A stretch of 37,463 bases of DNA from Owenweeksia sp. (GTDB taxonomy: Bacteria > Bacteroidota > Bacteroidia > Flavobacteriales > Schleiferiaceae), in assembly GCA_002695025.1 (NCBI GenBank), contig NZNV01000009.1, positions 1 to 37,463 on the forward strand. The letters run 5' to 3'. The translations under genes and the position numbers were made by a program. This document shows, one piece after another, positions 12,869-27,570 of the stretch; positions within the stretch are counted from its first letter, which is position 1, and each line of letters opens with the position of its first letter. The notes under the pieces were generated by a model. It saw only the letters and a program-made list of their open reading frames with translations, was not told where the DNA came from and searched no databases.

Positions 12869-14104
12869 TTATGGATGAATGTTAATGATCATTTTCCGGT
12901 CGCGGTTATAATCGCTTGAACCGGGTGTGAAATCATTGTAGTGGTACCAGGCATTACTGATACCAGACCAACCCCAGTTCATCCAGAAATAGGTGGGAGA
13001 ATACGTATAGGTCTCATATTCATAGCGTGTTCCGGGATTGTGAATGGAAATGTACTTATTACGCTTATACCCGTCACAAACCCAGGCATGGCCGGAGGAA
13101 TTATCCGGAGTGCGTCCCCGGAGAATAACAGGACGGGAGAAATAATTGAGCTGTGATACTACCGTACTTGCATTGTAACCTACATAAGTGGCAGTACTCG
13201 CATAACCGTAGTTGTTTACCAGCACATTACGGGCATTCCCCGTTTGAGCCCCAGAACCAGTACAGCTATAGCTCATTCCTACGTAATTACCAATATCCCG
13301 CATCAGTTTGGATGTTTCATTGCTTCCGGAACCGTTGGGCATACTACTCCAGCTGTAAGCATTGGTGGGATAGGCCCAGTAACGCATTACCTGAGCTGTG
13401 GCTGTAGCCACACACCCGGCCGGTGCATTGCCGTTGCTATAACCGCTACAATTGAGGTTACCATCATTTACAAGATTGTTGTAACCTACACCCTGCCCCC
13501 AGGTAGTAGCCATTAGCGGACCTTTTTGTTCCTGAACGGTACCACCGGATATTATGATCTCTTCATCCTCAGGAGGGGCAGCGTAGGACCACTGCTTTTC
13601 AATTTCTCCGGGTATGGATTTCTTTTGTGACTGACGCAACTCTACAGCTCGTGCCTTGTGATCCTCTATCCAGTCGTATAAACCACAGGATTGAATAAAC
13701 TGTGGGTTTGTATTAAAATAACCCGTTTCCGAAAAAGCCAGGATAGGCACTTCTCTGCGCGTGGCAGAAACCACTACAAAACCTTCCGGTTGCATCTGGA
13801 TCACATAAAAGGCTGCCAAACCATCCGATCCGAAAATAGTAGTGGTTTCCTTTACTTCTTTTTCAGAATCAAAACCCCGGGACGACCGAAAATCAGCCCG
13901 GTTAAGAGCCTTGGGATCCGGATGATGCAGAAAAGCCTGATCATGGGCAAAGTTACGGGCCACCTTTTTGGCCAGTTGCAGGGAAACATCAGCCTGGTCT
14001 GGCTGACCGGGAGTGTGATTGCTGCGCTCTTCTTTAGAGCAGCTCACAAGTACCAACAAAGCCATTAGCAAGGCCAGTACAGAGGTAGTTTTCAAAATTC
14101 TCAT
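12869..14104 (-). CDS. C10-family cysteine protease (streptopain-like), surface lipoprotein
   Basis: The 411-residue protein is a lipoprotein: hydrophobic signal, lipobox LVSC with C22, then SKEE, which matches the x-K-[DE]-[DE] export signal for surface-exposed lipoproteins. Residues 40-165 resemble the inhibitory prodomain of SpeB-like proteases (FYVIQMQPEGFVVVSATR). The mature domain has nucleophile C231 in PAGCVATATAQVMRYW and H339 in SGHAWVCDGY, followed by YFWMNWGWSG with the conserved tryptophans of the C10 fold. It should be a papain-fold endopeptidase made as a zymogen. It lacks a T9SS tail, so surface delivery would depend on the lipid anchor. It is transcribed alone and has its own terminator. 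Substrate (environmental protein, host protein or competitor) is unknown. Confidence 0.9.
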   Translation of the reverse strand: MRILKTTSVLALLMALLVLVSCSKEERSNHTPGQPDQADVSLQLAKKVARNFAHDQAFLHHPDPKALNRADFRSSRGFDSEKEVKETTTIFGSDGLAAFYVIQMQPEGFVVVSATRREVPILAFSETGYFNTNPQFIQSCGLYDWIEDHKARAVELRQSQKKSIPGEIEKQWSYAAPPEDEEIIISGGTVQEQKGPLMATTWGQGVGYNNLVNDGNLNCSGYSNGNAPAGCVATATAQVMRYWAYPTNAYSWSSMPNGSGSNETSKLMRDIGNYVGMSYSCTGSGAQTGNARNVLVNNYGYASTATYVGYNASTVVSQLNYFSRPVILRGRTPDNSSGHAWVCDGYKRNKYISIHNPGTRYEYETYTYSPTYFWMNWGWSGISNAWYHYNDFTPGSSDYNRDRKMIINIHP

Positions 14105-14375: not shown

Positions 14376-15725
14376 TTAAAAATCCAGCACAAACTCGGCC
14401 CACTCCCCCTTTACGGAGCTGGCAGAGATGCTTCCTTTATGCAGGCGCATAATCTGCCGTGACAGGCTCAGCCCAATACCCGAACCCTGCTCCCGGGTGG
14501 TATAAAACGGCAAGAAGATCTTGTCGCGTTCCTCTTCGTTAAATCCTTTACCATTATCCCGGACCTTAAGCCGTAAGGAACCCGACTTCCCGGTTTCTGC
14601 CGTGATGCGGATATGCTTGTTGGCAGTACCCTCCAAAGCTTCGGTGGCATTGTTCAACAAGTTGAGAATAACGTGCGTCAGTAATTTTTCATCGCCCGGG
14701 AATTCTTTGGAGGGATGGGTGTTGACCACTTCCAGCTGTACCTGCTCCGCTTTTTCCTGGCTTTTAAACAGCAGTCGAATAGATTCCAGCCAATGATCCA
14801 TGTTTATAGGCTTAAATTCCGGTTGAGGCACCCGCGTTAGTTTACGGTAATTGTCTACAAAGCTGCGCAGGCCTTCTGCTCTCTCTCCTATTACATTCAG
14901 CCCCTGCACGGTATTGTCAATTTCCTTTTGTTGTAGCTCTCCCGCCTTCACCGTTTCTCCTTTTTTCACATAAAAGCCGCTGAGTGTTTGGCTCAGGGAT
15001 GTAATGGGCGCTATAGAGTTCATGATCTCGTGGGTCATGATACGGATAAGTTTTTGCCAGGTCTCCAGTTCATTTTCCTCTAGTTCGGCCTTGATGTCGT
15101 ACAATGAAAAAATGCGGTACTTCTTTTCGGAAAACCGTATTACAGCTACTTGAACGGCAACCTGCTTCAGCTCCTTGCCGTCCGGAATTTTGATGCTTTC
15201 TCCCTGTCCGGGCTTCAAGCCTTCCATAAGTTTATACAGCACAGGATTATGCTGTTTTAAGCGGTCCATATGGGTAAGGTTGGGCAAGCCGGTTAATTTC
15301 AGGGCGGCATCGTTCACGATCTCTACAAAACCTTGGTCATCAATGGCTATTAAGCCACTGGCTGAACGTTTCATGAATTCGAGGAAAAAACGCTCGCTAT
15401 GTGCCTGCCGGATCCTGATCTCCGTAATCAGCTGGTTGATACGGTTCAGGTTCTCGTGCAATCCGCGTAAATTCTTATCGCTTACGTTTTCCGGGAAATG
15501 CAGGCTCCCGTCTTCACTTTTAACGGCCTCAAAGAAGAAGTGCAGCTTGCGGTGCGTACTCTGCATATAATAAAGCAAATTCCACCCGCTGATAAGTATG
15601 GCTAACAGGGAAATTACTGCATAACCCCATTCGCACAGAAATACCAAAAAAGAGGCAGCCACAATCAAAAGGGTAAAAAGCGCCAATCTCCCTATTACAC
15701 CAAAACGGGTATACTCAGAGCTCAT
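14376..15725 (-). CDS. NtrB-like sensor histidine kinase
   Basis: The 449-residue protein has two closely spaced transmembrane helices (about 13-30 and 34-52) with hardly any periplasmic loop, a linker helix, a PAS-like domain (about 110-215; ASGLIAIDDQGFVEIVNDAA), a dimerisation helix with phospho-accepting H232 in RIMTHEIMNSIAPITSL, and an ATPase domain with N-box LNLLNNATEAL, G1-box VRDNGKGF and GSGIGLSLSRQI. It senses something inside the cytoplasm or membrane and should phosphorylate the sigma-54 activator encoded immediately upstream; the genes overlap by 11 bases (15715-15725). The H-box HEIMNSIAPI is the Bacteroidota variant seen in NtrB/AtoS-like kinases. Regulation of the divergent exporter is likely. 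The signal is unknown. Confidence 0.9.
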   Translation of the reverse strand: MSSEYTRFGVIGRLALFTLLIVAASFLVFLCEWGYAVISLLAILISGWNLLYYMQSTHRKLHFFFEAVKSEDGSLHFPENVSDKNLRGLHENLNRINQLITEIRIRQAHSERFFLEFMKRSASGLIAIDDQGFVEIVNDAALKLTGLPNLTHMDRLKQHNPVLYKLMEGLKPGQGESIKIPDGKELKQVAVQVAVIRFSEKKYRIFSLYDIKAELEENELETWQKLIRIMTHEIMNSIAPITSLSQTLSGFYVKKGETVKAGELQQKEIDNTVQGLNVIGERAEGLRSFVDNYRKLTRVPQPEFKPINMDHWLESIRLLFKSQEKAEQVQLEVVNTHPSKEFPGDEKLLTHVILNLLNNATEALEGTANKHIRITAETGKSGSLRLKVRDNGKGFNEEERDKIFLPFYTTREQGSGIGLSLSRQIMRLHKGSISASSVKGEWAEFVLDF

Positions 15726-17073
15726 AGCGCTTGATCTTATTGTATAAGGTCTGGCGGGTAATTCCCAGTTTTTCAGCTATTAAGGAAAGGTTGCCCTCAT
15801 AACGATCCATAGCGTTTATGATCAGGTCCTTTTCCATTTCTGAAAGGGAAGGGAGTTCCCGACCTGGATGATGATTAACGGCTTGCAGGTCGAAATCAGC
15901 AGGCATCAACACCTGTCCTTCGGCCAGTATTACCGCCTTTTCCAGGGTATGTTGCAGTTCTCTCACGTTACCCGGCCAGTGATAATTGCCCAGTTTCCGG
16001 ATGGCCTGGCTCCCCAATCTAAGCCCGGGCTTATGGTATTTTTCCTGGTAAACCCTCAGGAAGTGTCCAGCCAGCAATTCGATATCCTCGCCCCGCTCCC
16101 TGAGCGGAGGCAGCTCAATTTTAATGGTATTGATGCGATATAGCAGGTCCTGGCGAAAACTTCCTTCCTGTACCATTTTTTCGAGGTCTGCATTGGTAGC
16201 GGCTACCAGACGTATATCTACCGGTACGGCTTTGTGCGAACCCAGCGGAAAAACCGTGCGACTTTCCAGGGCCACCAACAATTTGGATTGCAGGTGCATA
16301 GGTACATTACCTATCTCATCCAGGAAGAGTGTTCCTTTGTCGGCCAGCTGGAACTTACCCACCTTATCCTCTTTGGCATCGGTAAAGGCTCCTTTATGAT
16401 AACCAAAAAGTTCACTTTCAAAGAGACTTTCGGGTATGGCCCCCATATCCACGTTCATCAGCAGCTCATTCTTTCTTTTGGAAAGACTGTGGATCTGTTG
16501 GGCTATCACTTCTTTACCCGTCCCGTTTTCACCACTTATCAGCACATTGGCATCAGTGGTGGCTACCTTCTCCACCATCCGCATCACCTTACGCATTACG
16601 GCAGATCCCGCTATCAATTGCCGGCCCTTATTTAATTCACCTTTAAGAAATGATTCACGGTTCTTCAGCTGTGCCACTTTCTGGTGCGACTGGCGAAGTT
16701 TTAATGCCGATTTAAGCGTAGCCACCAGCTTTTCATTGTCCCAGGGTTTCAGTACAAAGTCCACCGCACCCAGTTTTAAAGCCTTTACCGCCAGTTCCAC
16801 ATCGCCATAGGCCGTGATCATCACCACTTCCACCTCCGGGCTGACCTTTTTCATTTCGCCCAGCCAGTACAAACCCTCGTTACCGGTGTTGAGGCCAGCT
16901 GAAAAGTTCATATCCAGCAGAGCTACGTCAAAATCCTGCTTTTCAAGCTCTCCCTTTATGAGGTTGGGGTTGGAAAGGCATACTACTTCCCCAAACTCGT
17001 ACTGTAAAAGGAGGTTCAAAGCGCTCAGGGCGCTTTTATTATCATCTACTATAAGTATCCTGCCGGCTTTCAT
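15715..17073 (-). CDS. NtrC-family sigma-54-dependent response regulator
   Basis: The 452-residue protein has a receiver domain (1-125) with acidic pocket D10/D11, phospho-acceptor D54 (VALLDMNF) and K in FVLKPWD. The AAA+ domain has Walker A GENGTGKE, the sigma-54 contact loop GAFTDA (canonical form GAFTGA), Walker B GTLFLDEIG and the arginine-finger region FRQDLLYRINTI. A C-terminal Fis-type helix-turn-helix ends NLSLIAEKLGITRQTLYNK. It opens sigma-54 promoters by ATP hydrolysis after phosphorylation by the downstream kinase. ATG 17073 (MKAGRILIVDD) is preferred over a TTG four codons upstream. The gene is divergent from the exporter operon and a palindrome lies between them, which fits a local activator. 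The GAFTDA loop is noted as a variant, not a defect. Confidence 0.92.
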   Translation of the reverse strand: MKAGRILIVDDNKSALSALNLLLQYEFGEVVCLSNPNLIKGELEKQDFDVALLDMNFSAGLNTGNEGLYWLGEMKKVSPEVEVVMITAYGDVELAVKALKLGAVDFVLKPWDNEKLVATLKSALKLRQSHQKVAQLKNRESFLKGELNKGRQLIAGSAVMRKVMRMVEKVATTDANVLISGENGTGKEVIAQQIHSLSKRKNELLMNVDMGAIPESLFESELFGYHKGAFTDAKEDKVGKFQLADKGTLFLDEIGNVPMHLQSKLLVALESRTVFPLGSHKAVPVDIRLVAATNADLEKMVQEGSFRQDLLYRINTIKIELPPLRERGEDIELLAGHFLRVYQEKYHKPGLRLGSQAIRKLGNYHWPGNVRELQHTLEKAVILAEGQVLMPADFDLQAVNHHPGRELPSLSEMEKDLIINAMDRYEGNLSLIAEKLGITRQTLYNKIKRYEL

Positions 17074-17127
17074 GTGATGTTCCAAAAATACTCAAAGCAA
17101 CAGGTGCTTTGTAAAGTGTATAAAAAT

Positions 17128-17145
17128 TAGACAGCGGACTGTCTA
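17128..17145. promoter_or_regulatory. Perfect palindrome, probable enhancer site of the NtrC-like activator
   Basis: TAGACAGCGGACTGTCTA is a perfect inverted repeat with seven-base arms and a CGGA centre. It lies 55 bases downstream (in plus coordinates) of the regulator start and about 65 bases upstream of the -24 element of the exporter promoter, the usual place for an upstream activating sequence. Confidence 0.6.
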
Positions 17146-17209
17146 TATTTTTTACTTTTTAATTAATTCCATTATGGCTAAAATTATGATTATGAATGAT
17201 TTGTGATTA

Positions 17210-17224
17210 TGGCACCTGGCTTGA
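17210..17224 (+). promoter_or_regulatory. Sigma-54-type -24/-12 promoter of the exporter operon
   Basis: TGGCACCTGGCTTGA matches the consensus TGGCACGnnnnTTGC at -24 (TGGCAC) and in spacing, with A instead of C at the final position of the -12 element. Counting from the -12 position, transcription would start near 17236, only about two bases before the ATG at 17238. Confidence 0.55.
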
Positions 17225-17237
17225 CATGGGGTAAATC

Positions 17238-18488
17238 ATGGACCGCCAGATCAGCAATAAATACCCTGTTTCCAAAAAACACCTGGGATGGATCATTCTC
17301 GGGGCTTTCATCATTATTGTCATTTGTGCGGCCCTCCTAGTGGATACCTCTTCTGTGTATAAGGTGGATAAAGACCGGCTTACCATAGCAGAAGTCACGC
17401 ACGCTCCCTTCCAGGATTACATTAATGTACGGGCGCGGGTGGAACCTTCCTACATGGCTTACCTGGATGCCGTGGAAGGGGGTATTGTGGAAAATATTGT
17501 TGCCGAAGAAGGTGCCATGGTAAAGCAGGGAGATACCCTGCTGGTACTGAGCAACCTTAATCTCAGCCTGAACATACTGAACAGCGAGGCACAATTGGCG
17601 GAGAAAGCTAATTTCCTGCGGGAAACACAGATCAGCATGGAACAGCAAAAACTTTCCCTGCAGCGGGATTTACTGCGCCTTGAATACGACCTGAAGCAAA
17701 TGAGGCGTAAATATGAGCAGGATACGATCTTTCATGAAGACCAACTGATCTCCGATAATGAATTCCTGGAGTCCGAAGAGGCCTATCAGTTGGCGGAAAA
17801 GTTGAAAATACTGAGCCTGGAAAGGCAGGAGCAGGATGCGGTGTTCCGTAAGAACCAGCTACAAAAGATCCGGCAAAACCTGGAAAGCATGGAACGCAAC
17901 CTGGCCCTGATCTACCAAAGGCAGGATCATCTTATAGTACGCGCTCCTGTAAATGGCCAGTTGGCGTCTCTCAACGCAGTTCCGGGTCAGTCCGTTAATC
18001 CCGGCCAGCGTCTTGGGCAGGTAAATGTACTGGACGATTATAAGTTGCAGGCCAGTATTGATGAACATTATATTGACCGTGTGGAAGAAGGTCTTTCCGC
18101 CCGCATGGAAAGACAGGAAACTGTATATCAACTTACTATACAAAAAGTATATCCTGAAGTAAGTGAAGGGCAATTCCTGGTAGACCTGGTATTTAAAGAC
18201 TCCGTTCCGGACAATATTCGTAGCGGACAAACCCACAATATCAGCCTGCAGTTGGGAGACACTCAGGAAGCTACCCTCTTAAGGCGTGGCGGCTTTTTCC
18301 AGTCTACCGGTGGGCAATGGGTTTACCTGCTAAATGAGGATGGTACCAAAGCTTTGAAGCACCCTATCCGCATTGGCCGGCAAAACCCGAAGTATTACGA
18401 GGTTCTGGAAGGGCTGAAAGATGGTGACCAGGTGGTTATCTCAGGCTATGACCTTTTTGGGAACAATGAAAAACTACTGCTCAAATAA
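17238..18488 (+). CDS. HlyD/MacA-type periplasmic membrane fusion protein
   Basis: The 416-residue protein has one N-terminal membrane helix (about 20-36; GWIILGAFIIIVICAALL), a lipoyl-like half (LDAVEGGIVENIVAEEGAMVKQGDTLLVL), a long coiled-coil hairpin (about 100-225; rich in Q, E, L and R) and the second lipoyl half (VRAPVNGQLASLNAVPGQSV) followed by beta-barrel and membrane-proximal domains. It would bridge the inner-membrane ABC transporter encoded downstream to an outer-membrane channel. It is the first gene of a three-gene operon (gaps 22 and 16 bases) and begins at a sigma-54-like promoter. No TolC-like channel gene is in the window, so that part must be supplied from elsewhere. The upstream frame is closed by a TAA at 17232, fixing the start. 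Confidence 0.88.
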   Translation: MDRQISNKYPVSKKHLGWIILGAFIIIVICAALLVDTSSVYKVDKDRLTIAEVTHAPFQDYINVRARVEPSYMAYLDAVEGGIVENIVAEEGAMVKQGDTLLVLSNLNLSLNILNSEAQLAEKANFLRETQISMEQQKLSLQRDLLRLEYDLKQMRRKYEQDTIFHEDQLISDNEFLESEEAYQLAEKLKILSLERQEQDAVFRKNQLQKIRQNLESMERNLALIYQRQDHLIVRAPVNGQLASLNAVPGQSVNPGQRLGQVNVLDDYKLQASIDEHYIDRVEEGLSARMERQETVYQLTIQKVYPEVSEGQFLVDLVFKDSVPDNIRSGQTHNISLQLGDTQEATLLRRGGFFQSTGGQWVYLLNEDGTKALKHPIRIGRQNPKYYEVLEGLKDGDQVVISGYDLFGNNEKLLLK

Positions 18489-18510: not shown

Positions 18511-19224
18511 ATGGAAAATATGATCCACATACAAAAACTATCCAGGACCTTCCGCACGGAGGAAGTTGAAACCCTGGCCCTCAATGAAGTAAACCTCAGC
18601 GTTAAGAAAGGAGAATTCACCGCTATCATGGGTCCTTCGGGCTGCGGTAAATCTACCCTGCTAAACATTATCGGCCTGCTGGACAATCCCAGTTCCGGCT
18701 CGTATCAGTTTGACGGACAGGAAGTATCCGGCCTCCGTGAACGGCAGCGCACAGCGCTTCGCAAGGGCAACATCGGCTTTGTATTCCAGAGTTTTAACCT
18801 CATTGATGAACTGAACGTATACGAGAATATTGAAGTGCCGCTCAAATATTTGGGCATCAGCGCTTCTGAAAGAAAGACCAGGATAGAGGAAGTACTGGAA
18901 CGGATGAAGATCGGTCACCGCAGGAAACACTTCCCCCAACAGCTTTCCGGAGGTCAGCAACAACGGGTTGCTCTTTGCCGGGCCGTGGTGGCCAACCCCA
19001 AATTGCTTTTGGCGGATGAACCCACCGGTAACCTTGACTCGCGCCACGGTATGGAGGTCATGAAACTCTTACTGGAACTTAACCGTGCCGGCACTACCAT
19101 TGTAATGGTTACGCACTCCGATTACGATGCGGGTTTTGCACACCGCCTCATCAACTTGTTTGACGGACGGGTGATCACCGAAGAAGAGAAAAGAAAACTG
19201 GAAGACTCTCCTGAATTATTTTAA
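18511..19224 (+). CDS. ABC transporter ATPase (MacB/LolD-like)
   Basis: The 237-residue ATPase has every motif: Walker A GPSGCGKS (41-48), Q-loop FVFQSFNLIDEL, signature LSGGQQQRVALCRAV, Walker B LLLADEPTG with the catalytic glutamate, D-loop NLDS and switch histidine in VMVTHSD. It belongs to the group that works with FtsX/MacB-type permeases, powering mechanotransmission or export from the periplasmic side rather than ordinary substrate import. It is expected to dimerise on the cytoplasmic face of the permease encoded 16 bases downstream. The short inter-gene gaps suggest one transcript with the fusion protein and permease. The exported substrate (lipoprotein, peptide, antibiotic or cell-envelope component) cannot be read from the sequence. 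Confidence 0.93.
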   Translation: MENMIHIQKLSRTFRTEEVETLALNEVNLSVKKGEFTAIMGPSGCGKSTLLNIIGLLDNPSSGSYQFDGQEVSGLRERQRTALRKGNIGFVFQSFNLIDELNVYENIEVPLKYLGISASERKTRIEEVLERMKIGHRRKHFPQQLSGGQQQRVALCRAVVANPKLLLADEPTGNLDSRHGMEVMKLLLELNRAGTTIVMVTHSDYDAGFAHRLINLFDGRVITEEEKRKLEDSPELF

Positions 19225-19240: not shown

Positions 19241-21658
19241 ATGAAACTCATCCGTAAATTAAACCGTAACTGGCAATGGGTACTTATCAATATGGGCGGA
19301 CTGGCGCTGGCCTACGCCTGTGTAGTACTCGTATTTTCCTTCACCGCCAAAGAGCTGAGCTACGACCGGTTTCACCGTAAGGCTGATCGTATTTACCGCG
19401 TTACCACCAGCACCCACGGATCCAGTATTATGCACCCCGCCCGGGTGTGGGGTGAGTGGATCCCGCAATTACCGGAAGAATACCCCGCCATTGAAGGTTT
19501 GGTGCGCATGGTGCCGTTTAAAAAAGGTATCGTGCAGATTGGGGAACAACGTTTCTATTCCGACCACCTTTTTAAAGCAGACAGTTCCTTTTTTGATATG
19601 TATGATTTTAAGTTACTCAGTGGCAAGACAGATGAAGTACTCCACAAACCCAATGAAGCTGTGCTTAGCCGTAGTTTGGCGCTTAAATATTTTGGGAACC
19701 TGGATGTGCTGGGCAAACAACTGGAAATAACCCATCAGCAACAAGACAGTGCCGTTGCCTATACCATAGTTGGCGTTATGGAAGATTTTCCGGCAAGTTC
19801 TCACTTTCATGCCGAGGTGCTTACCACCATACCCGATATGGAACTTAACTCCTCTTGGGGATATACGTATTACCTCGTGAAAGAAGGTACGGATATGGAA
19901 GCGTTACGAAGCTCTATACAGCAAAAGTGGGATGAAGAACTGGAAGAAGGACAGATACCCAAGCAAATACATTTTCAGAAACTTACAGACATTCACCTGT
20001 ACAGCCATAAAACCCGTGAAATAGAATCCAATGGCGACATACGCTCTCTGATACTATTGGTAAGCGGAGCGGTGATCATTCTCTTTATTGCCTTGATCAA
20101 TTTCCTGAACCTTAGCCGGGTACAGTTTATTGCAGATACCAAATCCATCAAGATCAAAATGATCAACGGGGCTACCAGGAATCGTATAGCGCGCGAAATT
20201 GCCACAGAGTCATTGGTCATCTCGCTTACTGCTATACTTTTAGGCCTCTTCCTGTCTCATAAGCTAAGCGCCTACTTGCATACCGACCCCTTTTCATCCT
20301 ACCTGGCGGTTATTCTCATCTCCTTGGTTTTTATACTGTGTATAGCCTTTCTCTCCGTGTATCCTTTGCTTTCTTCACGTATAGTGTCCGATACCCGGGT
20401 TTCGCGCTCATCAGCCGGGCTGTACACCTTCCCCTTGGTGTTGCAGTTTACGCTGGCGGTAATTGCCATTACCGGCACCATAGTGCTGCAGCGCCAGATC
20501 AAGTTCCTGAATGACCAGCACCCGCAAGCCACCAATGCCAACATCGTAGTAATTGAAAGAAACCCATGGACAGTGGTTCAGCGTTACGATCGCTTTAAGG
20601 GCGAGTTACTCAATGATCCTTCTATTGTAAGCATGACCGGGGCCATGGAAGAACCGGGCGGTGATGTGCTGGATAATTTCCAGTTTGAAATGGAAGGAAT
20701 TGAACCGGACGAAAGCCGAACGCTCTACATCCTTACCACCGATTCCAACTTTTTTACGGCTATGGGTATAAAACCGCTGGCAGGTACCGTAAATCTGGGC
20801 TATACACCTGGCCAGGAATGGGAAAGTAATGCTGTGGAGCTAAGTATGCTTCTACAAGATGAAAATGGCAGCCAGGAAAGAGCGGATGAACTTTATGAAA
20901 AGATCCGCGATTACCGCGAGAAATACATTCTCAATGAAAGTGCTCTGAAAATGCTCGGTATTGACGATCCTCAGGATGCCATCGGTCGTAGTTTTCGCCT
21001 GCATTTTCAACTTCCATTTCTCTTCCCGGAAGGCACCGTAGTAGGCGTAGTCCCTGATTTTCATTATACCAACCTGCACAACCAGGAAAGGCCCATGGTT
21101 ATCGCTCCCCGTAAAATGTTCAACTATAACTTCCTTATACAGATCGATCCTGAACGCAGAAGTGAAGCCCTTGCAGCGATCAATAAAAGTTGGAACACCA
21201 TCAACCCTGAGTTTCCTTTGGAGTACAGCTACATTACCGATGCGTATCAAAAAGTGTATGCTACGGAATATGCGCAAAGTAAGGTGCTTTCACTTTTTGC
21301 GCTCATCTCCATCCTGCTGTCGGCCCTGGGGATCTATGCCATTGCTGCCTTCAGTATGCAGAGACGGGTAAAGGAAATAGGCATCCGTAAAGTGAATGGT
21401 GCTACGGTTTCAGAGATCATAATGATGCTCAACCGCAAATTCATTCTCTGGGTGACCATTGCCTTTGTAGTGGCAGTTCCCATAGCCTGGTATGCCATGC
21501 ACCGCTGGCTGGAGAACTTTGCTTACAAAACAGAACTGAGTTGGTGGATATTTGCTTTGGCCGGGCTCATTGCCATGACAGTGGCCATGATAACGGTTAC
21601 GCTTCGCTCCTACCGGGCAGCCACCCGCAACCCGGTGGAAAGCCTGCGTTATGAATAA
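19241..21658 (+). CDS. FtsX/MacB-family ABC transporter permease
   Basis: The 805-residue permease is of the long Bacteroidota form with two FtsX-type halves. It shows one N-terminal transmembrane helix (about 14-34), a large periplasmic MacB-like domain (about 40-265), a three-helix bundle (about 270-290, 325-345, 350-375), a central helix near 395, a second periplasmic domain (about 430-670) and three final helices. The coupling motif KEIGIRKVNGATVSEI occurs before the last helices, as expected for contact with the ATPase; a weaker version (KSIKIKMINGATRNRIA) follows the first bundle. It probably forms a dimer with the two-gene partners upstream. It is the last gene of the sigma-54-linked operon. 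No clear terminator was found after the stop. Confidence 0.9.
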   Translation: MKLIRKLNRNWQWVLINMGGLALAYACVVLVFSFTAKELSYDRFHRKADRIYRVTTSTHGSSIMHPARVWGEWIPQLPEEYPAIEGLVRMVPFKKGIVQIGEQRFYSDHLFKADSSFFDMYDFKLLSGKTDEVLHKPNEAVLSRSLALKYFGNLDVLGKQLEITHQQQDSAVAYTIVGVMEDFPASSHFHAEVLTTIPDMELNSSWGYTYYLVKEGTDMEALRSSIQQKWDEELEEGQIPKQIHFQKLTDIHLYSHKTREIESNGDIRSLILLVSGAVIILFIALINFLNLSRVQFIADTKSIKIKMINGATRNRIAREIATESLVISLTAILLGLFLSHKLSAYLHTDPFSSYLAVILISLVFILCIAFLSVYPLLSSRIVSDTRVSRSSAGLYTFPLVLQFTLAVIAITGTIVLQRQIKFLNDQHPQATNANIVVIERNPWTVVQRYDRFKGELLNDPSIVSMTGAMEEPGGDVLDNFQFEMEGIEPDESRTLYILTTDSNFFTAMGIKPLAGTVNLGYTPGQEWESNAVELSMLLQDENGSQERADELYEKIRDYREKYILNESALKMLGIDDPQDAIGRSFRLHFQLPFLFPEGTVVGVVPDFHYTNLHNQERPMVIAPRKMFNYNFLIQIDPERRSEALAAINKSWNTINPEFPLEYSYITDAYQKVYATEYAQSKVLSLFALISILLSALGIYAIAAFSMQRRVKEIGIRKVNGATVSEIIMMLNRKFILWVTIAFVVAVPIAWYAMHRWLENFAYKTELSWWIFALAGLIAMTVAMITVTLRSYRAATRNPVESLRYE

Positions 21659-21815
21659 ATGCTATTTCAATTGGAAGCTAAGCTTGTCCCCGGTTTTTTC
21701 TAGGCGAGACTATTCATGGCGGCTTCAGGGGTAATAACCGGTGGTCTGGCAATCCCGAATCAGGATGACCTGAACAATACCGTCCGTAAATCTTTATTTA
21801 AAAAAAGCATTGATC

Positions 21816-22436
21816 ATGAAAAAACTGAAAGTAGCCATACTATACTACTCCTCCACCGGAGTAAATTACCAATTGGCCCAATGGGCTACCGAAGCCGCCC
21901 AAAGCGCAGAGACCGAAGTCCGCAGGTTGAAGTTCAGGGAAACTGCCCCTCAGCAAGCCATTGAAGGTAATGATGCCTGGAAGGCTTTTCACAACTCGGA
22001 AGAAAATAAAAGGGAAACGGAGGCCTCACTAGACGACCTGGAATGGGCAGATGTATTAATATTCAGCGTACCCACCCGCTATGGTTCTGTTCCTTCACAG
22101 GTACAATCCTTTATAGATACCACCGGAGGTTTGTGGTTTGAAGGAAAGCTGGCCAATAAGGTGGTAACAGCCATGACCAGTGCCCAGAATGTACACGGAG
22201 GTCAGGAAACCACCCTTCTGTCTATCTACAAAACTATGATGCACTGGGGTGCTATTCCCGTAGCTCCGGGTTATACTTTCCAGGAATCCTTTGAGGTGGG
22301 CGGAAACCCGTATGGTACCAGTACTCAAACCGATGGCACAGGAAAAGTACTGGATGATGTAAAACCCGGGGTAGAAAAACAGGTGAAGCGCGCCATAGAA
22401 GTAGCCGGGTGGCTGCAGCACGGACGCAATGCTTAA
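21816..22436 (+). CDS. WrbA-family NAD(P)H:quinone oxidoreductase (flavodoxin-like)
   Basis: The 206-residue protein starts with the flavodoxin phosphate-binding loop (AILYYSSTGVNYQLAQWA; S12-T14) and has the isoalloxazine-binding SVPTRYGSVPSQVQ and TGGLWFEGKLANKVVTAMTS, all typical of WrbA. Such proteins bind FMN and reduce quinones by two electrons, avoiding semiquinone radicals. The insertion QAIEGNDAWKAFHNSEEN is variable in the family. The ATG at 21816 (MKKLKVAILYY) is preferred over a TTG two codons upstream. It is a separate unit after the exporter operon, with 157 bases between. Its likely role is protection against electrophilic quinones, a theme shared with the qorB-like gene in this window. 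Confidence 0.87.
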   Translation: MKKLKVAILYYSSTGVNYQLAQWATEAAQSAETEVRRLKFRETAPQQAIEGNDAWKAFHNSEENKRETEASLDDLEWADVLIFSVPTRYGSVPSQVQSFIDTTGGLWFEGKLANKVVTAMTSAQNVHGGQETTLLSIYKTMMHWGAIPVAPGYTFQESFEVGGNPYGTSTQTDGTGKVLDDVKPGVEKQVKRAIEVAGWLQHGRNA

Positions 22437-23475: not shown

Positions 23476-26265
23476 GTGAACCTCCAATACCTGCTTGTGC
23501 GGTCCGCTCTGACGTGGCTGATCAGCCTGCTTACCTTAACGGGAAATGCCGCCATTACGGATAGTATCCCGCTGTATATATTGGAGGATGGGCCCGAAGG
23601 ACGCGTCATTATCTCGGAGCATGTGGAGATCGCACTTTCCCATCGCAAATACACTTCGCAAGAGATCATCGGTCCGGAAGCTCCACCTTTTGGGATCTTG
23701 CCTGATTCTGTCCATACTAATTTCCCGTTAACACTATGGGCACGTATACGCCTGCGCAACCAAAGCCCGGATGTGCAAAACCTCTACCTGGGCTTTTGTA
23801 ACCTGGTGGATTCGGTTTCTTTCTACACCCTGAAGGACGGACGCTTGCAGGACCTTAAAGTCAGTGGTGCAGCTATAGACCCTTTTCAAAAGAAGCTCAT
23901 CACCTCCACCAATCATATACCCTTGGAGTTAGGTGAAGGCGAAGAGATCACAGCTTATTTCAAATTACAGTTCAGCCAGCCGGTATCGCCTGAACATCTT
24001 GGAGAACTCTTTATACAGAGTGATGGCTATGTGCTGGGAGCTCTGCTGGAAAAGTTTGCCGTACAATTCTTTTATGCCGGTCTGATGTTGCTTTTCAGTC
24101 TACTGAGCCTGTTCACCTACCTTCTCTTCCGCGACCGCACCTTTATTTACTTTGCGGGCGTACAGCTAAGCTTCACTTTTTACTTCCTTAGTGTTTCCGG
24201 TATAATAGACACACTTTTACTGAGAGGACACTCCTTTCCGGTACCACCTATTTTCCTATCCCTTTCGGTACTGGTGCTTTCTGTGGGGCTGTTTGTGAAC
24301 GCCTATATCCGTATCCGGCAGCATTACCCACGCTACTACCATTGGTATATGGCACTCACCGTATTTACTGCTTTAAGCAACCACCTGGGCTTATGGATAC
24401 TACAGGAATATTACCAGGTAGCATTCTACTACAACGTTGTGTTGATCGTATGGATCATCTTCACCTTTATCCCGATCTTGTTACTGGCACGGGGCAACAG
24501 CCGGCAGGCCCGCAATCTGTTGGTAGCTCTCTCAGTGCTTTTCCTTACTTCACTCCTCTACGTGATCTATTTATTGGGCTACTTCCCGCAGGGATTCCCG
24601 GCCGGTTACAGTGTGCAAGCGGGTACTCTACTGTTCGCACTCTTGGTTTTCTACGGTTTATTTGACCAGGTGAACGCCATTAAGCTGGACCGTCAAAAAA
24701 TGGAGAACCTGGAGCAATTGAAATCGCGCTTCTTTGCCAATATATCACACGAGTTCCGCACCCCTCTTACCCTACTATTAGGGCCTATTGAACAATTACG
24801 TGAAAAGGCCCATGAAGCAAGCGATAAAAAGCTGTTGGACACCGCCCATACCAATGCCCAGCGCCTGCTGGATCTCATCAACCAACTGCTGGACCTGGCA
24901 CGGCTGGAAAGTGGTAAGATGCAACTGCAGCTTAGTGAGCTCAATTTCCCACAGTTCCTGAAGGGTATTGTTATGTCCTTTGAATCTCTCGCCCTGCGGA
25001 AAAACATACGGCTGCATTTTATGAGTCGTAATACCAGTATACCCTTGTGGATAGACCGTGAAAAGACCGAGGTGATCTTCTATAACCTACTTTCCAATGC
25101 CTTTAAGTTTACCGATTCCGGTGGCGAGGTGGCAGTAGGCGTAAGTGAAGATGATGAGCAGGTGGAAATAGTGGTACGTGATAACGGTATCGGTATTCCC
25201 GAGGATCAGTTAGCTCACATTTTTGATCGTTTTTACCAGGTACAAGAAGCCTCGCTACGACAGGTGAATGGTTCCGGTATCGGACTGGCGCTGGTGCAGG
25301 AACTGGTGCAGTTGCAACAGGGCAGTATCCGGGTGGAGAGTACAGAGGATGAAGGCACTACTTTTATACTCAGCTTCCGGAAATGTAGCAGCCACTTAAG
25401 CAATGAAGGACTTCCGGATAGCGGTACAAAACTACAGTATAAAGCTTCAGTTATCGATACGGAAACCTCCGTAACCGAAGAGGAGGCCTGGGAACGCCCC
25501 CTTTCCTCCACCCCACTTTTATTGCTTATTGAGGACAATGCCGATATCCGCGATTACATACGCCAGCAACTGCAAGGCCATTTTCGCCTGGAGGAGGCCG
25601 TTAACGGTCGTGAAGGCATTGAAAAAGCATTGGAACTGCACCCGGACCTGGTGATCAGTGATGTAATGATGCCCGAAAAGGATGGTTACGAGGTGTGTCA
25701 TTTCCTGAAACAGGACGAGCGTACCAGCCACATACCGGTCATATTACTCACGGCCCGTGCCAGCCAGGAGGAAAAGCTGAAGGGGCTGGAATACGGAGCT
25801 GATGATTACCTGCTCAAGCCCTTTCATTCCCGTGAGTTGGAGGTGCGCGTGCGCAAATTGATTGAATTGCGGGTGCAGCTGCGCAGGAAGATCCAGGAAA
25901 ACCCCACCCTCAACTTTAGTGACCTGGGCGGAAATCCGGCCGATCTGGCCTTTATGGAAAAGATAAACGGCTGTATTGAAAAGTATATGGATGATAACCA
26001 GTTTGGAGTAGGCACCCTGGCCGAAAATATGGGCATGAGCAGCGTGCATCTGAACCGTAAGCTCAACGCACTTACCGGTTACTCTTCAGGGAAATACATA
26101 CAGCAAACCCGCCTGCGCAGGGCACTAAACCTTTTGGAGAATACCCGCATGAACGTTTCCGAAGTAGCCCTGGAAACGGGTTTTAGCAGCACCGCTTATT
26201 TTGTAAAGTGTTTCCGGGAACATTATGGTAAAACACCCGGTAGCATTCAGCAAAAAACCTCCTGA
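23476..26265 (+). CDS. One-protein hybrid two-component regulator (7TMR-DISM, kinase, receiver, AraC DNA-binding domain)
   Basis: The 929-residue protein combines a signal peptide, a periplasmic 7TMR-DISMED2-like sensor domain (about 30-185), a seven-helix membrane domain (about 190-400), a histidine kinase with H425 in ANISHEFRTPLT, ATPase motifs LLSNAFKFTDSG and GNGSGIGLALVQ-like VNGSGIGLALVQ, a receiver with D729 in VISDVMMPEKDGYE, and an AraC-type helix-turn-helix (about 830-925; NMGMSSVHLNRKLNALTGYS, VSEVALETGFSSTAYF). Sensing, phosphorelay and DNA binding are thus in one polypeptide, acting from the inner membrane. These hybrids often control nutrient-use or surface-protein genes nearby. 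The start is a GTG; no closer ATG precedes the signal peptide. The next gene downstream is a T9SS cargo. Confidence 0.92.
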   Translation: MNLQYLLVRSALTWLISLLTLTGNAAITDSIPLYILEDGPEGRVIISEHVEIALSHRKYTSQEIIGPEAPPFGILPDSVHTNFPLTLWARIRLRNQSPDVQNLYLGFCNLVDSVSFYTLKDGRLQDLKVSGAAIDPFQKKLITSTNHIPLELGEGEEITAYFKLQFSQPVSPEHLGELFIQSDGYVLGALLEKFAVQFFYAGLMLLFSLLSLFTYLLFRDRTFIYFAGVQLSFTFYFLSVSGIIDTLLLRGHSFPVPPIFLSLSVLVLSVGLFVNAYIRIRQHYPRYYHWYMALTVFTALSNHLGLWILQEYYQVAFYYNVVLIVWIIFTFIPILLLARGNSRQARNLLVALSVLFLTSLLYVIYLLGYFPQGFPAGYSVQAGTLLFALLVFYGLFDQVNAIKLDRQKMENLEQLKSRFFANISHEFRTPLTLLLGPIEQLREKAHEASDKKLLDTAHTNAQRLLDLINQLLDLARLESGKMQLQLSELNFPQFLKGIVMSFESLALRKNIRLHFMSRNTSIPLWIDREKTEVIFYNLLSNAFKFTDSGGEVAVGVSEDDEQVEIVVRDNGIGIPEDQLAHIFDRFYQVQEASLRQVNGSGIGLALVQELVQLQQGSIRVESTEDEGTTFILSFRKCSSHLSNEGLPDSGTKLQYKASVIDTETSVTEEEAWERPLSSTPLLLLIEDNADIRDYIRQQLQGHFRLEEAVNGREGIEKALELHPDLVISDVMMPEKDGYEVCHFLKQDERTSHIPVILLTARASQEEKLKGLEYGADDYLLKPFHSRELEVRVRKLIELRVQLRRKIQENPTLNFSDLGGNPADLAFMEKINGCIEKYMDDNQFGVGTLAENMGMSSVHLNRKLNALTGYSSGKYIQQTRLRRALNLLENTRMNVSEVALETGFSSTAYFVKCFREHYGKTPGSIQQKTS

Positions 26266-26385: not shown

Positions 26386-27570
26386 ATGAAAGCAAAACGA
26401 CTATCCATTTTTATTTTTCTGGCCATCAGCACCTGGGCCTTTGAAGGGCACGGCCAGGTAACCATCAACCAAAGCAGTTTTTTGCGCGCCAGCGCTCAGG
26501 TAGACAGCGCTTACACTCCTTCCCAAACCACCGTAAGCCTTCCCGCTGAAGGAAGTGCTCAAAACTGGGACTATTCTACACTATCCTATAATTATGTTTA
26601 CCTATACACTTACCTGGATGCCGCACAGGACCCGGCTTTCAACAATGCCTTTTCCAAGATCTCCAGTAGTTTTTCCTTCCAGGCATTCCAAACCCAAGGA
26701 TGGAATTATGATGGTATGGACGCCAATGGCTGGTATGCGGTGGGACGTACTACCAGGGATTCCGCTTTTTCCATTACCGCTATTAGCGGAGGAGCCAATG
26801 ACTCACTTTTTTTCCCGGCATCAACCGAGGCTTATGGCGGACGTACGGATTATATGAAATTTCCTACGACCTATCCCGATCAATGGACTCAAACCCGTAC
26901 GGAGATAACACCTTTTGCCCTTACCGTGGGGGCCTTTGCTCTGAACCATACACCCGGAGAAGGAAAGAGAACTCAAATTGAGACCCGTGAGATTAAAGGT
27001 TATGGTAAACTTACCATTGCGCTGGCGGATGGCAGCCCTTCCCAGACCCTGGATGTGTTATTACTGAAGGTACAGCGTACCAGTATTGACAGCTTCTTCC
27101 TGGGTGGCAGCCTGGCTCCGGCTCCCCTGATGGCGGCTTTCGGTATCAACCAGGGTATGAGTGTTTACGATTCGTACTATGCCTTTTATAAGCCTGGCTA
27201 TGGAGCCCCGGTGATGACCATTGATATTAATTCAGGTGCTGGTGGTAACGTTTTTGTAAGGCCTGCCGCTGCACGTTCAGGCAATATCGCTATACAGGAA
27301 TATGATCAGGCCCTGCACCAGAGCTACCCCAACCCTGTAGCTCCGGCAGAACAGTTGCATATTGACCTTGACGAGCCGATCAAGGCGGCCGCTCTCCAGG
27401 TGATCAACACCAACGGTCAGCTTGTATACGAGGCTCTGCTGGACGGGCAAGCTTCCGCGCATTTTGAATGTACTATTCCTTCAAACCTGGCTCCGGGCCT
27501 GTATTTCTACCAACTTATTAATCATACTCAAAGGCCGCTGGTAAAGGGACGTCTATCGGTACAACCGTAA
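26386..27570 (+). CDS. Secreted T9SS cargo protein, function unknown
   Basis: The 394-residue protein has a signal peptide to about residue 24 (RLSIFIFLAISTWAFEGHGQ) and a type A T9SS C-terminal domain from about 310 (QSYPNPVAPAEQLHIDLDEP ... GLYFYQLINHTQRPLVKGRLSVQP split). The mature part between is rich in serine, threonine and aromatic residues and looks like beta-sandwich (WDYSTLSYNYVYLYTYLDA, MKFPTTYPDQWTQTRTE). I recognise no catalytic motif. It lies 120 bases after the hybrid regulator, in the same direction, and may be its target, although the intergenic region shows only a weak promoter resemblance (CAGTTTTG, one mismatch to TAnnTTTG, around 26356). A hairpin terminator follows. Confidence 0.78.
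   Translation: MKAKRLSIFIFLAISTWAFEGHGQVTINQSSFLRASAQVDSAYTPSQTTVSLPAEGSAQNWDYSTLSYNYVYLYTYLDAAQDPAFNNAFSKISSSFSFQAFQTQGWNYDGMDANGWYAVGRTTRDSAFSITAISGGANDSLFFPASTEAYGGRTDYMKFPTTYPDQWTQTRTEITPFALTVGAFALNHTPGEGKRTQIETREIKGYGKLTIALADGSPSQTLDVLLLKVQRTSIDSFFLGGSLAPAPLMAAFGINQGMSVYDSYYAFYKPGYGAPVMTIDINSGAGGNVFVRPAAARSGNIAIQEYDQALHQSYPNPVAPAEQLHIDLDEPIKAAALQVINTNGQLVYEALLDGQASAHFECTIPSNLAPGLYFYQLINHTQRPLVKGRLSVQP

Follow-up and report, generated by a model that had tools for sequence, protein, structure and literature searches.

Positions 17117-17224 of the analysed window, a 37,463-nucleotide stretch of Owenweeksia sp. DNA (assembly GCA_002695025.1, contig NZNV01000009.1), most probably form an enhancer joined to a sigma-54 promoter, at which a phosphorylated regulator seated on tandem dyads loops the DNA and switches on an exporter operon. 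The layout of predicted operator, promoter and spacing is shown by comparison with other genomes. Because all three recur beside related regulator/exporter pairs, the neighbouring NtrC-type regulator very probably drives the exporter. An earlier note, made from the letters of this DNA alone, had proposed that a two-component system drives the exporter directly. With the layout recurring as it does, this remains very probable for the regulator acting through a sigma-54 promoter, but the single-dyad site through which it was supposed to act most likely gives way to a tandem.

The workings of NtrC-type proteins, including phosphorylation, binding, looping and activation, are the basis for proposing the same steps here. 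The phosphorylated regulator (15715-17073) would occupy two tandem 17-bp dyads, 17117-17133 and 17140-17156, and the likely form is a pair of dimers that share roughly one face of the helix. The bound dimers would give rise to an active AAA+ ring, which by way of a DNA loop would open sigma-54 polymerase at 17210-17224; the middle of the tandem lies 73 bp upstream of that promoter. The opened polymerase would then transcribe the adaptor-ATPase-permease operon. Gene order and predicted topology make the adjacent kinase the probable cognate partner, one that would signal from inside the membrane.

Gene organization of the module

As the earlier note described, an NtrC-type gene is divergent from the exporter operon and both regulatory elements lie between them. 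The listed open reading frame of 15715-17085 is on the minus strand, and the adaptor, ATPase and permease genes follow from 17238 on the plus strand. The listed frame starts from a TTG at 17085, and the regulator's ATG is at 17073. Pfam finds in the product of 15715-17073 the receiver (Response_reg, E = 2e-19), the AAA+ sigma-54 activation domain (Sigma54_activat, 1e-66) and the Fis-type helix-turn-helix (HTH_8, 3.3e-14) that make up an NtrC-type activator. A sensor histidine kinase of 449 amino acids, recognized by Pfam HATPase_c, hydropathy, its H-box and an AlphaFold model, is encoded at 14376-15725, also on the minus strand. The 4.46 Mb assembly contains one rpoN match.

The exporter operon encodes a periplasmic adaptor (membrane fusion protein) of 416 amino acids that is distantly DarC-like (17238-18488), an ABC ATPase of 237 amino acids resembling MacB, LolD and DarD (18511-19224), and a MacB/FtsX-type permease of 805 amino acids (19241-21658), all on the plus strand. 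By Pfam, an adaptor, an ATPase and a MacB_PCD/FtsX permease thus share a single operon, the arrangement of a MacAB-TolC-type exporter, with ATPase and permease as two separate proteins. The top NCBIfam match of the permease is the duplicated-permease family ADOP, under that family's cut-off. An outer-membrane factor was sought adjoining the exporter operon, and none was found there. The three proteins match the DarC, DarD and DarB models of the darobactin exporter DarBCD, but all fall well under the NCBIfam equivalog cut-offs (180 versus 450 bits for DarC, 283.9 versus 375 for DarD and 80.6 versus 700 for DarB).

Going by the adaptor, the nearest named relative, at 68% identity, is a Flavobacteriales MAG; the next are mainly Bacteroidales and Marinilabiliales-type records. 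Two other genomes of the same genus, searched at E <= 1e-40, lack an adaptor match, and the exporter module therefore looks accessory in this lineage.

Other genes were noted nearby. Downstream of the kinase gene, 12869-14104 encodes a cysteine peptidase of the C10 (streptopain-like) family that also has a Spi-type inhibitor domain. A WrbA-like flavodoxin/quinone reductase gene (21810-22436) comes right after the permease gene on the same strand and could share its transcript. Further along is a hybrid 7TMR-DISM sensor kinase (23476-26265), a single protein that includes both a receiver and an AraC output. The product of 26386-27570, next after it, ends in a sorting tail for type IX secretion.

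The predicted tandem operator and its promoter

The palindrome TAGACAGCGGACTGTCTA, which the earlier note called perfect, is found where it was reported, at 17128-17145. It consists of two inverted arms of 7 bp that flank an asymmetric 4-bp centre (TAGACAG-CGGA-CTGTCTA) and sits within a longer, imperfect inverted repeat (17112-17161) whose arms are 78% complementary. The genome search proposed for further copies returned none: in the 4.46 Mb assembly the 16-bp core has this one occurrence. The 18-mer was matched at <=3 mismatches in none of 100 shuffles of the window. Dyad and promoter together are taken as more than chance because their layout is conserved in other genomes.

A different reading of the same bases emerges when the flanks are included. 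Two 17-bp dyads of the form TGT-N11-ACA, TGTATAAAAATTAGACA (17117-17133) and TGTCTATATTTTTTACT (17140-17156), follow each other with a period of 23 bp and a gap of 6 bp. The tandem scores 11 of 12 (p = 0.007 versus shuffles); the final base of the right dyad departs from ACA. Because TGTATAAAAATTAGACA and TGTCTATATTTTTTACT form a tandem, the reported palindrome is best described as the junction of its two inner half-sites, the right half of the left dyad and the left half of the right dyad. A junction palindrome of the same kind is found at locus L097. At another locus, L016, the dyads are TGTCAAAAAAATAGACA and TGTCTATTTTCTTTACA, with the tandem geometry of the window and all four half-sites present. 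The operators of the window and L016 agree at 30 of 40 bases and their promoters at 14 of 17. The spacer between operator and -24 element (17157-17209 in the window) is 53 bp long in both, yet just 24 of its 53 bases are identical.

The predicted sigma-54-type -24/-12 promoter, TGGCACCTGGCTTGA, occupies 17210-17224 on the plus strand, where the earlier note had placed it. The -24 element and the spacing hold, but the -12 element reads GA instead of GC, so that the site has a single mismatch (A for C) to TGGCAC-N5-TTGC. By itself this motif is weak, since the window contains 40 such sites at <=2 mismatches versus 34.4 expected. The site is the best of its own intergenic region and faces the exporter (p = 0.025 versus shuffles). 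A strict -24/-12 pattern gave one match across this genome versus one control match, and no regulon was identified with it.

Promoters were compared at the 38 adaptor-first loci among 48 divergent loci. The better sigma-54 site is on the exporter-facing strand in all 38 intergenic regions, the window included, and reaches p <= 0.05 versus shuffles in 34 of them. TGGCAY is found in 32 of the 38, while the -12 element is variable (TGA, TGG, TGC or weaker). Tandem TGT-N10/11-ACA dyads separated by 5-6 bp are found upstream of the promoter at p <= 0.05 in 32 of 38 of these regions. Genomes with the adaptor never lack rpoN (0 of 120, versus 7 of 275 adaptor-negative genomes, by comparing the lists by hand). 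This co-occurrence says little and was set aside as an uninformative test because nearly every genome of the phylum (388 of 395) has rpoN.

From the position of the -12 element, transcription is predicted to start near 17236, which would leave a leader of 2 nt before the exporter ATG (17236-17238); the corresponding leader in L016 would be 3 nt. At 32 of 36 other divergent loci, leaders worked out from the -24-to-ATG distances would be about 12-36 nt. Either the exporter message is nearly leaderless or the predicted start is slightly wrong.

The spacing, measured between the tandem's midpoint and the T of the -24 element, likewise recurs. Relatives of the adaptor were gathered at 69 loci, plus 20 of 149 genomes (its own included), and the search for tandems required nothing except a position upstream of the best promoter site, so that distance played no part in it. 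In 51 of 65 regions, one of which is empty, the best tandem lies at 72-75.5 or 81-86 bp (4.5% of shuffles). The tandem score is >= 10 in 45 of these 51 and a weak 9 in the other six (L021, L024, L025, L026, L064 and L098). Where a full regulator lies near the exporter (50 loci, window included), the best tandem falls in one of the two distance windows in 46 cases, 42 of them with a score >= 10. The distance is exactly 73.0 bp in the window, L016, L019, L020 and L022. The layout is kept in L019, L020, L022 and L030, where an outer-membrane factor is the first gene.

Operators between divergent genes might chiefly serve the other gene: the dyads would autoregulate the regulator, and the exporter would be transcribed from elsewhere, for example a sigma-A promoter. 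A possible housekeeping-type promoter for the regulator gene, TTTA-N21-TATTTTTG, lies on the minus strand at 17083-17115, with one mismatch to a Bacteroidota consensus. Regulator autoregulation is possible because the operator abuts the upstream element of this putative promoter, and the regulator's ATG is just 44 bp from the left dyad. As the chief function of the dyads, however, it is improbable. The fixed distance is measured to the -24/-12 site that faces the exporter, and it is also kept in L075, where regulator and kinase genes lie upstream in the same direction and the kinase gene, not the regulator gene, adjoins the site. A scan for sigma-A-like promoters directed at the exporter gave one match, which has 2 mismatches. 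Autoregulation and exporter control may operate together.

If the 18-bp dyad at 17128-17145 were the entire operator, one regulator dimer would suffice. This arrangement, which the earlier note had adopted, draws on the dyad being the unbroken centre of the longest inverted repeat in the region, on the uniqueness of its 16-bp core in the assembly, and on the imperfect outer right half-site of the window. It is nevertheless quite improbable and was rejected in favour of the tandem, for the outer half-sites recur across relatives about as faithfully as the inner ones and all four are present in L016. An exact TGT is found at the outer-left, inner-left, inner-right and outer-right positions in 45, 33, 45 and 30 of 47 discovery loci and in 34, 32, 34 and 32 of 37 replication loci (see below), counts that are all inflated alike by a search that favours TGT/ACA at each of the four positions.

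It is hardly credible that the repeat is a transcription terminator, some other element acting as RNA between the two divergent genes, or a product of chance. A T-rich stretch does come after the inverted repeat, but both genes begin downstream of it and neither ends there, and distant genomes repeat both the tandem half-sites and the spacing between them and the -24/-12 site.

Further members of a regulon were sought in the genome itself with patterns based on the tandem operator. The tandem pattern gave four matches versus two for a reversed control, of which only the one in the window is convincing. Matches to the TGTCTA half-dyad are fewer than those to its control (8+8 versus 51+31), and no regulon was identified.

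Replication and helical phasing

A second set of loci was drawn from 395 genomes of the phylum, 120 of which carry the adaptor at E <= 1e-50. From these, 80 adaptor loci were hand-picked to spread over families; in 21 the regulator was not in reach, and the remaining 59 were analysed. Both thresholds set beforehand were missed. The exporter-facing strand is preferred in 48 of 59 loci (85% wanted; 52% in shuffles), and the preset distance windows hold 20 of 59 (60% wanted; 4.2% in shuffles). Of the 39 loci that fail, 17 narrowly miss a preset window: 15 lie at 69.5-71.5 bp and two at 79.5 bp. Windows widened to 69-75.5 and 79.5-86 bp, picked post hoc with the data already seen, hold 37 of 59 loci (6.4% in shuffles), and 22 of 59 are without the spacing even then. 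Tandems scoring >= 11 are found in 37 of the 59 loci versus 0.4% of shuffles, and 33 of these 37 fit the widened windows.

When the 109 regulators of both sets are grouped at 80% identity, 68 clusters result, of which the 51 with a tandem score >= 11 were used. Their distances fall into two groups: 22 clusters at 70.5-74.5 bp (mean 72.0) and 26 at 79.5-85.5 bp (mean 83.3; both means computed by hand), with none between. Three clusters lie outside both groups, at 51.5, 62.5 and 139.5 bp. The two groups are about one helical turn apart, and the window, at 73 bp, belongs with the shorter. The best-fitting period, which is based on two modes, has a broad maximum at 11.25-11.5 bp. Parsimony requires at least 10 changes of one turn on a FastTree tree that comprises 76 regulators, those with a tandem score >= 10 and a distance of 60-90 bp after thinning. 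Because two groups about one turn apart, with none between, have been exchanged this often, they are read as reflecting selection for a shared helix face. With such repeated changes, natural promoters allow a test of whether looping needs the same face.

Sensing, specificity and related systems

The sigma-54 contact loop of the window regulator is GAFTDA as opposed to GAFTGA. Counting the window, 44 of 50 regulators have GAFTDA and five have GSFTDA. One passage names GAFTDA among the GAFTGA variants that would keep activity (PMC4641369), and another calls GAFTGA invariant (PMC12316311).

Regulators with the recognition-helix sequence QTLYNK (PTLYNK in L028) stand beside AT-rich half-sites such as TGTAAA, TGTCTA and TGTCAA, and most of those with LYRR or LYRK stand beside TGTNCG. 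For 73 of 76 regulators the helix type matches the operator type, the exceptions being L118, L122 and L244. This agreement is suggestive. As independent proof the covariation was rejected, since the operator class changes no more than one or two times on the trees. Among the 46 of 59 replication loci with a tandem score >= 10, the preset prediction of operator type from helix type came true at 37 of 40 LYR-type loci, with one variant in addition, and at three of five QTLYNK-type loci. With the classes redefined afterwards by CG at half-site positions 5-6, at least one such half-site is found in 38 of 40 LYR-type loci and none in the five of QTLYNK type.

The kinase is composed of an N-terminal membrane hairpin, a central part containing both strands and helices, an H-box with His232 (THEIMNSIAPI) and an HATPase domain. 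In the Pfam scan HATPase_c was found and the HisKA and PAS models were below threshold. The AlphaFold model of the window kinase places helices at residues 2-29 and 33-69, joined by a 3-residue turn, with a mean pLDDT of 77.2; its pTM is 0.41, and it was therefore used for local structure alone. Two transmembrane helices with a very short loop and no sensor domain are the hallmarks of an intramembrane-sensing (Bce-type) kinase, and the modelled window kinase shows them. By hydropathy, membrane segments are predicted in the first 70 residues of 44 of 47 kinases (all except L082, L118 and L130). By a looser definition 81 of 107 qualify, and 20 of the 26 others have one extra hydrophobic window ending at residue 124-138.

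As modelled, the kinase appears to be without a periplasmic sensor domain, and its signal must enter via the membrane, a partner or the cytoplasm. The envelope-stress or toxic-compound signal put forward in the earlier note would be conjecture. With a membrane hairpin and no such domain, sensing through the exporter, by analogy with the Bce modules of Firmicutes, is possible. Passages on BceRS-BceAB modules describe a similar pairing of an intramembrane-sensing kinase with an adjoining ABC transporter. BceB is akin to the MacB/FtsX permeases, and Bce modules use an OmpR-type regulator, unlike the NtrC/sigma-54 output and the Gram-negative exporter with adaptor found here. A tentative and rather doubtful extension is that Bacteroidota have phylum-wide, self-contained exporter modules, Gram-negative counterparts of Bce, in which a sensor-less membrane kinase reads the state of its MacB-type exporter and reports via a sigma-54 activator on a phased tandem enhancer. 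The placement of a sensor-less kinase beside a MacB-type exporter poses the testable question of how cells sense the compounds that they export.

The circuit otherwise resembles those of the NtrBC, ZraSR, AtoSC and GlrR types. It shares with them a regulator built from receiver, AAA+ domain and Fis-type helix-turn-helix, dyads upstream of a -24/-12 promoter, and rpoN. It differs in its GAFTDA loop, in having a MacB-type exporter as target, in a kinase apparently without periplasmic domain, and in an operator of tandem TGT-N10/11-ACA dyads, for which two distances are preferred that differ by about one turn.

A link between sigma-54 and such exporters is already in print. Passages of PMC12316311 (2025) report predicted sigma-54 promoters to be enriched for COG0577 ABC-type antimicrobial-peptide permeases in Bacteroidia and other classes, and describe this as the first evidence connecting sigma-54 to that family. 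The strings 'palindrom' and 'UAS' are absent from the main text of that paper, and the passages on the permeases give no operator, regulator pairing or spacing rule. A literature search that covered few subscription papers found no description of this tandem operator or its spacing. Relative to the published link, the phased tandem operator is what is new here. It offers a concrete cis-code for a widespread kind of Bacteroidota sigma-54 activator, from which the likely site, target and permitted distances can be read directly from sequence.

A paralogue and a second module of the same kind are found in this genome. An adaptor/permease paralogue, with 34% identity in the adaptor, is located on contig C38 (8899-13236). 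No regulator match was found in the 18 kb around it, and its 400 bp of upstream sequence (scanned as L106) contain neither a tandem operator nor a good sigma-54 site. The second module, L114 (contig C11, 3105-9702), consists of a GAFTDA regulator with the helix RAALYRR, a kinase that has a membrane hairpin by eye, and a divergent operon for a 119-amino-acid protein (exported in appearance, also by eye), an ATPase and a permease. No adaptor match was found in the 16 kb around it. Tandem dyads, TGTTCAAAACCGAACA and TGTTCGAAAATGAACA, with half-sites TGTTCA/TGTTCG, lie upstream of this operon. The best sigma-54 site is at 95 bp, outside both distance windows, and a weak alternative would be at 83 bp.
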